64,000 nucleotides of DNA. Source: an uncultured Bacillota bacterium (GTDB lineage: Bacteria > Bacillota > Clostridia > Lachnospirales > Lachnospiraceae). The position numbers were made by a program, and so were the translations under genes. Of this stretch, positions 260 to 61,406 are shown piece by piece. Location: positions 1 through 64,000 of the forward strand of contig CASEXH010000015.1 of the NCBI GenBank assembly GCA_949291945.1. Direction: 5' to 3'. The notes under the pieces were generated by a model. It had not been told where the DNA came from. It did no database searches and saw nothing but the letters and a program-made list of their open reading frames with translations. The number at the start of each line of letters is the position of its first letter. Within the stretch, counting starts at the first letter, position 1.

Positions 260-287
260 CAACATTTGTTACTCGCAAATGCTGCCC
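251..287 (-). terminator. riboswitch-controlled intrinsic terminator of fhs
   Basis: On the minus strand a 12-bp stem with one mismatch (GGGCAGCATTTG / CAAATGTTGCCC) and a 7-nt loop is followed directly by six T. Its 5' arm overlaps the conserved CUGGGCA of the ZTP riboswitch, so aptamer folding and terminator folding exclude each other. That is the layout of a ligand-ON switch. Confidence 0.88.
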
Positions 288-358
288 AGACGGTCGGCTT
301 TCATTATAATTCTGATTCCCCTGTGGTACTCCACATTTATCCGTCAGTAATCAGAATC
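283..358 (-). promoter_or_regulatory. ZTP/ZMP riboswitch (pfl motif)
   Basis: Read on the minus strand, P1 pairs GATTCTGATT with AATCAGAATT. A GTGG-AGTA-CCAC hairpin follows, then GGGGA, a linker, and the signature 3' segment CCGTCTGGGCA. The loop GACGG can pair with CCGTC as the pseudoknot. In the usual consensus these are GGCGG and CCGCC, so both sides have changed together. ZTP signals low 10-formyl-THF, and fhs restores it. The assignment rests on motif recognition and gene context. Confidence 0.88.
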
Positions 359-395
359 TTGTTTTTTGGTAAGCTCTATTTCTTACCCTGGCTTT

Positions 396-12036: not shown

Positions 12037-12065
12037 CATGAAAGCCACAATGAAATATTATCATT

Positions 12066-12174
12066 TCTTCTCTCATCCAGACTATACTGTCGGTACCGGA
12101 ATCGCACCGGTTCAGCCGTAAAATACGGGTCGCGGACTGTTACCGCCGGTAGGGAATCGCACCCTGCCCCGAAG
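12066..12174 (-). promoter_or_regulatory. FMN riboswitch (RFN element)
   Basis: The minus strand carries the conserved blocks in order: CTTCGGGGCAGGG, CCGGCGGT, AGTCCGCGAC, GAACCGGTGCGATTCCGGTACCGACAGTATAGTC (seen as consecutive blocks) and GGATGAGAGAAG. The end-pairing CTTC/GAAG and the internal stems are intact. It would shut off ribU and the NUDIX gene when FMN is plentiful. Confidence 0.97.
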
Positions 12175-12197
12175 AATTTCTTTTTATTCTGTAGTAT

Positions 12198-27765: not shown

Positions 27766-27860
27766 GAAAGCCCCCTGTGTTTTCTGCGAATTTGTCGAGC
27801 ATGGTTTGAGACCTCAGAATCAAACCAGCGCAGACTGAGCAAGAAAACACAGGGGGCTTC
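27766..27860 (-). repeat. core-in-stem repeat element, copy 1
   Basis: An 18-bp perfect inverted stem (27768-27785 with 27842-27859) encloses a 56-nt core (27786-27841). The core starts GCGAATTTGTCGAGCA and ends CAGCGCAGACTGAGCA on the plus strand, with a GGTTTGA/TCAAACC hairpin inside. The core is nearly identical to that at 49409-49465 although the arms are unrelated. It lies 19 bp past the stop codon of the minus-strand ABC transporter gene, in the position of a terminator. Confidence 0.88.
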
Positions 27861-27878
27861 CATCCCGTCTATAAATAA

Positions 27879-49365: not shown

Positions 49366-49507
49366 GCAGCCGCATTAATCATATATCAGGAATATTTATA
49401 CATTTTATGCGAATTTGTCGAGCACAGCTTTGAGACTATAGGCTCAAAGCAGCGCAGACTGAGCAATAAAATGTATAAATATTCTCGATTTTGATTAATG
49501 CGGCTGC
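49366..49507 (-). repeat. core-in-stem repeat element, copy 2
   Basis: An outer 16-bp perfect stem (49366-49381 with 49492-49507) and an inner 19-bp perfect stem (49390-49408 with 49466-49484) surround a 57-nt core (49409-49465). The core starts GCGAATTTGTCGAGCA and ends CAGCGCAGACTGAGCA, as in the copy at 27786-27841. Its inner hairpin is GCTTTGAG/CTCAAAGC. It starts 5 bp past the dapB stop codon on the minus strand. Confidence 0.9.
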
Positions 49508-49512
49508 TCCTC

Positions 49513-50277
49513 TTATTTTTCAGCATTGATCACATGGCTCATATTGTACAGGCCTGCGCCTTTTCCCTTCAGGAACTTGGCCGCTTCTACTGCGCCTTTG
49601 GCAAAAACAGTCTTGGAATACGCCGTATGCTTAAATTCAATGACCTCATCCGGACCGGCAAAAATCACTTCATGATCTCCTACGATCGTTCCGCCTCTTA
49701 CTGCAGAAATGCCAATCTCCCTGGGATCTCGCTTCTCTCTCTTCTGGCTTCTGTCGTAAACATAATGGTACTGGTTGTCCATAGCCTCGTTCAGGCTGTC
49801 TGCCAAAGCCAGAGCTGTTCCGCTGGGAGCATCTACCTTCAGATTATGGTGGCGCTCTACGATCTCCATGTCAAATCCTGCTGCAGCCAGGACTTTTGCA
49901 GCATCCTGGATCAGCTTCAGCAGGGTATTGATCCCCAGAGACATATTGGCAGAACGAAGGATGGCTGTCTCCTTTGCAGTTTCTTCCACCTTCCGGATCT
50001 GCTCCTGGGACAGACCTGTAGTACACAGCACCAGAGGCAGCTTTCTGCTTCCACAGTACTCCAGGACCTTGTCCGTAGCTTTTGCTGATGAAAAATCAAT
50101 CATAACATCTGCCGGCACATCACATTTCTCAATGTCGGTAAATACCGGACATGCATATAACCCTTTGTCTTCCAGATCGATCCCGGCTGCCATTTCCACT
50201 TCCGGGTCCTGGGCCGCCAGTCCGGCGATCACCTGGCCCATATGGCCGTTGCAGCCGTTCATAATTATTCTGACCAT
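49513..50277 (-). CDS. dapB: 4-hydroxy-tetrahydrodipicolinate reductase
   Basis: A 254-aa enzyme of the diaminopimelate/lysine pathway. NAD(P) motif MNGCNGHMGQVIAG at the N-terminus; catalytic ERHHNLKVDAPSGTAL with the paired His and the Lys. It follows dapA by 39 nt on the same strand, giving the direct product of DapA the next enzyme. AGAGG lies 7 nt before the ATG. It ends at the core-in-stem repeat. Confidence 0.96.
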   Translation of the reverse strand: MVRIIMNGCNGHMGQVIAGLAAQDPEVEMAAGIDLEDKGLYACPVFTDIEKCDVPADVMIDFSSAKATDKVLEYCGSRKLPLVLCTTGLSQEQIRKVEETAKETAILRSANMSLGINTLLKLIQDAAKVLAAAGFDMEIVERHHNLKVDAPSGTALALADSLNEAMDNQYHYVYDRSQKREKRDPREIGISAVRGGTIVGDHEVIFAGPDEVIEFKHTAYSKTVFAKGAVEAAKFLKGKGAGLYNMSHVINAEK

Positions 50278-54616: not shown

Positions 54617-54662
54617 GCACAGGGAACAAAGGTCCTCAGGATTTTTGTTCCCTGTGCCTTTT
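54617..54662 (+). terminator. typA terminator
   Basis: GCACAGGGAACAAA and TTTGTTCCCTGTGC form a 14-bp perfect stem; CTTTTAT follows. Confidence 0.92.
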
Positions 54663-61217: not shown

Positions 61218-61281
61218 TCGCTGTCCGTTGCCAGTCGGATGCCCGCTCGTGCAAGCAGGTTGGTCGCCCGACCAGCTTATC
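61218..61281. repeat. 64-bp direct repeat, copy A, in the mntP leader
   Basis: Begins TCGCTGTCCGTTGC and ends CCGACCAGCTTATC. It is GC-rich, with internal GGTCG/CGACC and TGC-AA-GCA palindromes. A near-identical copy lies 125 bp away (61343-61406). Confidence 0.9.
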
Positions 61282-61342: not shown

Positions 61343-61406
61343 TCGCTGTCCGTTGCTCGTCGGATGCCCGCTCGTGCAAGCACGGCGGTCGCCCGACCAG
61401 CTTATC
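61343..61406. repeat. 64-bp direct repeat, copy B, in the mntP leader
   Basis: Same ends as copy A; it differs at about seven positions in two clusters (around the CCAG/CTCG and AGGTT/CGGCG segments). In this copy CGTGC-AA-GCACG is a perfect hairpin. It lies directly beside the riboswitch terminator. Confidence 0.9.

Follow-up and report, generated by a model that had tools for sequence, protein, structure and literature searches.

Downstream of dapB in the 64,000-nt window (the whole stretch of DNA that was analyzed) lies a long palindrome whose central core also occurs elsewhere in the window. The question raised by this locus is whether the core came to lie within the loop of a terminator that dapB already had, as the first-pass annotation had proposed, or whether stems and core are dispersed as a unit. 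The coordinates bear out the two stacked perfect stems of 16 and 19 bp described there, which are separated by an internal loop of 8 nt on one side and 7 nt on the other, and the outer stem ends 5 nt beyond the dapB stop codon (49513-49515, minus strand), the distance originally given in base pairs. The features considered here are as follows.

49366 to 49507, no strand assigned: copy 2, whole element, 142 bp, dispersed as a unit in its own genome and in Blautia relatives
49366 to 49381, plus strand: 5′ arm of the outer stem, GCAGCCGCATTAATCA, perfect 16-bp pairing with 49492 to 49507; consensus GGNGCTGYCGCATTA at other copies
49382 to 49389, plus strand: 5′ side of the internal loop, TATATCAG, 8 nt; most copies have CATATNTCAG
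49390 to 49408, plus strand: 5′ arm of the inner stem, 19 nt, perfect pairing; 19-bp length constant at most of 101 non-redundant sites
49409 to 49465, plus strand: core, 57 nt, asymmetric and near-invariant, GCGAATTTGTCGAGCA ... GCAGACTGAGCA on either side of an apical hairpin; its central portion recurs in a second genus
49427 to 49450, plus strand: apical hairpin within the core, GCTTTGAG-ACTATAGG-CTCAAAGC
49466 to 49484, plus strand: 3′ arm of the inner stem, 19 nt; 0 of 500 column shuffles for every covariation measure
49485 to 49491, plus strand: 3′ side of the internal loop, TCGATTT, 7 nt; most copies have TCGATTTTGA
49492 to 49507, plus strand: 3′ arm of the outer stem, TGATTAATGCGGCTGC, perfect 16-bp pairing with 49366 to 49381
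49513 to 50277, minus strand: dapB, 254 aa, the gene upstream of copy 2; single match in each of 20 genomes of the genus
27766 to 27861, plus strand: copy 1, whose 19-nt arms (GAAAGCCCCCTGTGTTTTC) differ but carry the same core
about 54617 to 54657, minus strand: plain terminator hairpin of the own genome, with an unrelated stem, at a site where genome G002 has an element (locus L092)

Copy 2 folds as DNA at -47.8 kcal/mol (z = -10.15, with 0 of 200 shuffles as stable) and as RNA of the dapB strand at -79 kcal/mol (z = -12.6). On the dapB strand the stem is followed by the T tract TTTCTTTTT. A simple terminator scan did not flag copy 2 because the loop of the element exceeds the limit of the scan.

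The repeat family in Blautia

The first 17 nt of the core occur 36 times with zero to two mismatches in the 3.66-Mb own genome, so the structure of copy 2 is not a product of chance. Two further, more diverged copies were read, for a total of ~38. Copy 1, with its core at 27785, does share the core of copy 2, as had been noticed at first reading. Most copies have in common the outer stem GGNGCTGYCGCATTA, the loop CATATNTCAG, the inner arm GGAATATTTATACATTTTA, the core, and a mirrored 3′ half. Therefore, the dispersed unit is the full ~140 bp and not the core alone.

A search that allowed one mismatch placed the core pattern in 13 of 20 genomes of the genus Blautia and in 1 of 41 other genomes, and the named hosts are mainly Blautia from chicken gut. 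A covariance-model search of 299 genomes sampled family-wide, including two Blautia genomes, returned matches in Blautia and one other genus only. Rfam, searched at gathering cutoffs and at relaxed thresholds, gave no credible match for the element, the best scores being far below the gathering cutoffs and mostly to eukaryotic miRNA hairpins; literature searches turned up no account of it. We conclude that the element is a previously undescribed, dispersed, noncoding palindromic repeat of Blautia. A phage or plasmid origin was rejected: the full pattern is absent from viral contigs, where a looser pattern produced one unrelated match, and plasmids and phages held nothing relevant to the element. 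A Blautia-like tyrS locus with a nested element was also found on a contig labeled Candidatus Merdivicinus (L134), which is probably misbinned Blautia-like sequence.

Core, arms, and position at gene ends

Across the 101 non-redundant sites, the 19-bp inner helix has a mean of ~16 Watson-Crick pairs. The arms are completely different between some copies, and two-sided changes were found at 16 of the 19 inner-stem pairs. In an alignment of 29 sequences, the arm helix was paired in 97% of cells and the structure outperformed all 500 shuffles and all slides, with the whole-structure figures driven by helix 1; the covariation figures from this alignment are for helix 1 only, and core pairs were taken from a separate analysis. 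At the copy 1 locus, the relative G017 has compensated arms. Read from the sequence, the core is asymmetric, with GC-GAATTT-GTC-GA-GC versus GC-A-GAC-TGA-GC flanking the apical hairpin; a K-turn was rejected as an interpretation because it did not fit. In another genus (G144), three copies carry TTGTCGAGYACGAGTTTGAGACTACAGGCTCAAACCGARCGCAGACC on unrelated arms that form near-perfect stems of ~14 to 28 bp. Because these copies keep the central core while their arms are unrelated, the core is the constrained part of the element.

Several species have an element on both sides of tyrS (L039, at C2:103556 and 105075 of the own genome, L091, L131, and L253). The arms of one such copy differ between species at 4 to 8 of 19 positions with pairing largely intact, in a setting where the flanks are ~93% identical. 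Tandem partial copies, each an extra 5′ arm and core half upstream of a complete element, are present at three separate loci (L251 and L252 in G019 and L200, the copy 1 locus, in G017). At L247 and L250, copies are abutted by a different repeat (ATGCTTGCATCGGGG type; GACTGCCGCAAGGGTCTGAT in L250) that has apparently displaced one arm of the element.

The copies examined lie between protein genes. A rough ORF caller placed 1 of 37 copies in the own genome in a divergent context, and the wider set comprised 24 convergent, 30 tandem, and 8 divergent contexts, with 15 copies too far from any gene. The median distance from the stop codon in the wider set was 20 nt. Within the nearest 10 nt, the left flank is 54% A and the right flank 50% T, against a background of about 30%, and A-rich left and T-rich right flanks occur together at 42 of 81 sites. 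A very stable stem followed by a T tract gives the element the sequence features of an intrinsic terminator. Located at the 3′ ends of genes between these A and T tracts, the copies are probably bidirectional terminators. The association with terminators is not invariable, as the 8 divergent contexts and a copy in an upstream region in another genus indicate.

An element with these properties could be a functional terminator, or an RNA or DNA site for protein binding, that is under selection, its core being bound by a cellular factor; recombination from one terminator to another would be its sole means of spread, and copies would persist through their usefulness. A nearly invariant core on arms that drift with compensation, a position at the 3′ ends of genes flanked by A/T tracts, and retention of the central core on unrelated arms in another genus are all consistent with this explanation. 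However, the two core orientations are about equally frequent, 16 versus 14 in tandem contexts with no preference, and flip at fixed sites, which also makes a strand-specific RNA role unlikely; moreover, the core has been lost at some orthologous sites. We regard selection on a useful element as an unlikely explanation for the family as a whole.

Empty sites, hairpin tips, and the dapB locus

Relatives that lack the element at a given site were compared with those that have it. At L121, the filled site of G006 reads GGACCGGGAA, element, TTCCCGGTCC, and the empty site of G018 reads GGACCGGGAA-AGTTTTGGCATGACCTGTAAC-TTCCCGGTCC, with flush junctions. The terminator of G018 and G014 at this locus is ACAGGACCGGGAA-loop-TTCCCGGTCCTGTTTTT, with one change per arm in G014, and in G006 this stem is preserved, the element occupying precisely the position of the loop. 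Filled (G000, G002, G006, and G019) and empty (G014, G001, and G018) genomes alike have the lower stem AAAAGGACTYTT/AARAGTCCTTTT at L006, and the upper part is replaced. At L092, filled G002 has AAAAGGACGGCAT and ATGCCGTC on either side of the element versus AAAAGAATGGCAC...GTGCCATT in empty G014, and both keep a lower stem of 13 bp whose differences are compensated. A fourth case, L031, is weaker, with only AAGAGGC/GCCTCTT in common with G018. These comparisons show replacement of a terminator tip at three loci, and less clearly at L031, so that the first-pass proposal of an element seated in a terminator loop holds for sites other than dapB; the claim of flush replacement is limited because the species compared are only ~80 to 91% identical and the loop that was lost may have differed from the one now seen in the empty species.

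Complementarity of the flanks outside the element's own stem exceeded that of mismatched flank pairs at a score of at least 9 (10 of 81 sites versus 0.9 expected) and of at least 11 (5 sites versus 0.13 expected); growth of the stem through template switching could be an alternative source of this pairing. In a nested case, one copy replaces the apical hairpin of another (L119, L134, and L253). Target duplication was not visible at the L121, L006, and L092 sites or in the nested case. L149 and L315, with a copy upstream of a gene, have ~99% identical flanks, and the empty form is a small hairpin, AGGTGTTATTGATTTAAATAATACCT; this may be a clean recent insertion or a reduced short form.

Dispersal of this kind might reflect a nonautonomous transposon, MITE or PATE-like, that is mobilized in trans by a conventional transposase, with its adjacency to terminators due to selection only. 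MITEs such as Nemis and Correia are small, nonautonomous, palindromic, and found near genes, and the element shares these features. Its copies are dispersed and similar, have species-specific core variants (AGCG... in G008 and G013), and insert into one another, as a transposon would. In contrast to a MITE, the element has ends that are inverted repeats but variable, and it is the core that is conserved; arms and outer ends being least conserved is the opposite of what is expected of transposon ends, and the clean empty sites show no target duplication. No mobilizing gene was found in the intervals between close copies or in the Y1 family, the transposase family tested. Y1/RAYT transposase PF01797 had no match in G000, G002, G012, G013, G014, and G017, all of which have copies, and is present in some element-free genomes. 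It is thus uncorrelated with the element, and a RAYT/IS200 Y1 transposase was rejected as the mobilizer. No parent transposon was found between close copies, where only tyrS and other ordinary housekeeping genes lie, and none of the loci read had a copy with a gene between the core halves. An ordinary transposon is therefore, in our judgment, decidedly unlikely.

The core together with its arms is inverted at L006 between G000/G019/G016 and G002/G006, and also between sister species at L033/L127. Neutral palindrome dynamics, in which template switching and gene conversion create, homogenize, invert, and shrink hairpins without a dedicated factor, would account for such inversions and for compensated arms at orthologous sites. 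Template switching between inverted repeats is known to give arm homogenization and spacer inversion (PMC8604942), and switching at quasipalindromes accounts for arm homogenization and core inversion in the element. It is a mutational process and not an element family, however, and leaves the conserved core unexplained: alone, it cannot account for a core conserved across genera on unrelated arms or for about 38 copies per genome. We consider neutral dynamics by themselves improbable.

At dapB, the full element is present in G000 and G001. In G002, whose DapB is 99.6% identical, and in G014, a short hairpin follows the gene, consisting of the outer stem and the loop AATATTCTCGATTTTGA; the stem of G017 is shorter, and more distant relatives have unrelated terminators. 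An intact short terminator in a sister species had been put forward as the sign of an insertion, and a short hairpin is indeed found, yet it carries AATATTCTCGATTTTGA and provides no clean empty site. This coreless form, outer stem plus AATATTCTCGATTTTGA joined at an identical point, was seen at about nine loci (L171, L179, L168/L174, L190, L178, L175, L131, and dapB in G002/G014 among those noted), and at L025/L131 and L099/L175 sister species differ in having the full or the short form. Because AATATTCTCGATTTTGA is the loop sequence of the element itself and recurs in this form, the short hairpin in G002 and G014 is best read as a coreless derivative. Its junction is too regular for random deletion ends, and the form is best read as having arisen via deletion or by a swap between copies. 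At most of the ~38 unrelated sites, the core is accompanied by the outer stem (GCTGYCGCATTA type), the loops, and the arms, so the outer stem belongs to the element and not to a dapB terminator. Although the short hairpin of G002 has the same outer stem, placement of the core alone in a pre-existing dapB terminator is almost certainly wrong, as these parts are common to unrelated sites and the short form itself contains element sequence. Overall, the earlier interpretation is partly supported.

Proposed route of spread and relation to known systems

Our preferred account, held with about even confidence, is that a noncoding ~140-bp palindromic element spreads via replacement of hairpin tips and is tolerated through probable termination. 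The variable but always complementary arms would serve as a stalk that presents the conserved asymmetric core at its tip. Copies would settle just past gene ends, often substituting for an intrinsic terminator hairpin, either its tip or all of it. With its A/T tracts, the element would end transcription from both sides, and insertion would be tolerated because transcription is still probably terminated in both directions. A new copy would form by exchange of a terminator hairpin's tip for the hairpin of the element, through joining of hairpins or polymerase template switching from one to the other, and a putative trans-acting factor would recognize the core. The recurrent short form at about nine loci fits this model only if tips swap between copies.

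A more specific proposal is that the family is a new kind of mobile element for which the resident hairpin tip is cut off and the element hairpin is joined flush, with the core recognized by a putative enzyme and the arms free to vary; we view this as doubtful. The candidate binding motif for a putative factor is GTCGAGCA...GCGCAGAC. If the preferred account is right, a repeat can settle in terminators without harm because it preserves their activity, and hairpins can both receive and donate mobile DNA with no duplication of the target. The family offers a clear system in which to test how long palindromes originate, remain perfect, and spread in bacteria.

Individual features of the element recall REP/BIME, MITEs, 23S rRNA intervening sequences (IVSs), and group IIC introns, but it lacks defining features of those tested. 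Like REP/REPIN/BIME sequences with RAYT, it is a dispersed, noncoding, intergenic palindrome, often past genes, with many copies per genome. It differs in being much larger (~140 bp; copy 2 is 142 bp), in having its conserved part at the tip and not at the foot, and in the absence of the Y1 transposase from element-rich genomes. In 23S rRNA, short IVSs take the form of elongated stem-loops at the tips of helices. The REP/REPIN unit is described in PMC3733652 as a short palindrome of 20 to 40 bp with a GTAG/CGTC tag at one end, and this tag is absent from the consensus ends of the element. IVSs in 23S rRNA are extra sequence at helices 25 and 45 that is tolerated by the host RNA (PMC2672173), and the element would similarly be carried in a host RNA helix; in contrast, its hosts are the terminators of many genes, and it has a conserved core and many copies. 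Group IIC introns also prefer intrinsic terminators (PMC4424553), but the element is 140 bp, lacks a ribozyme and a reverse transcriptase, and replaces the hairpin tip, and Rfam group II intron models gave no match at gathering or relaxed thresholds. What would be new relative to known dispersed palindromic repeats is the tip-replacement behavior.

Elsewhere in the window, Rfam identified a ZMP/ZTP riboswitch (277-361, minus strand) and an FMN riboswitch (12061-12180, minus strand), and a direct repeat of 64 nt, 92% identical, occupies 61218-61281 and 61343-61406 with a spacing of 125 nt.
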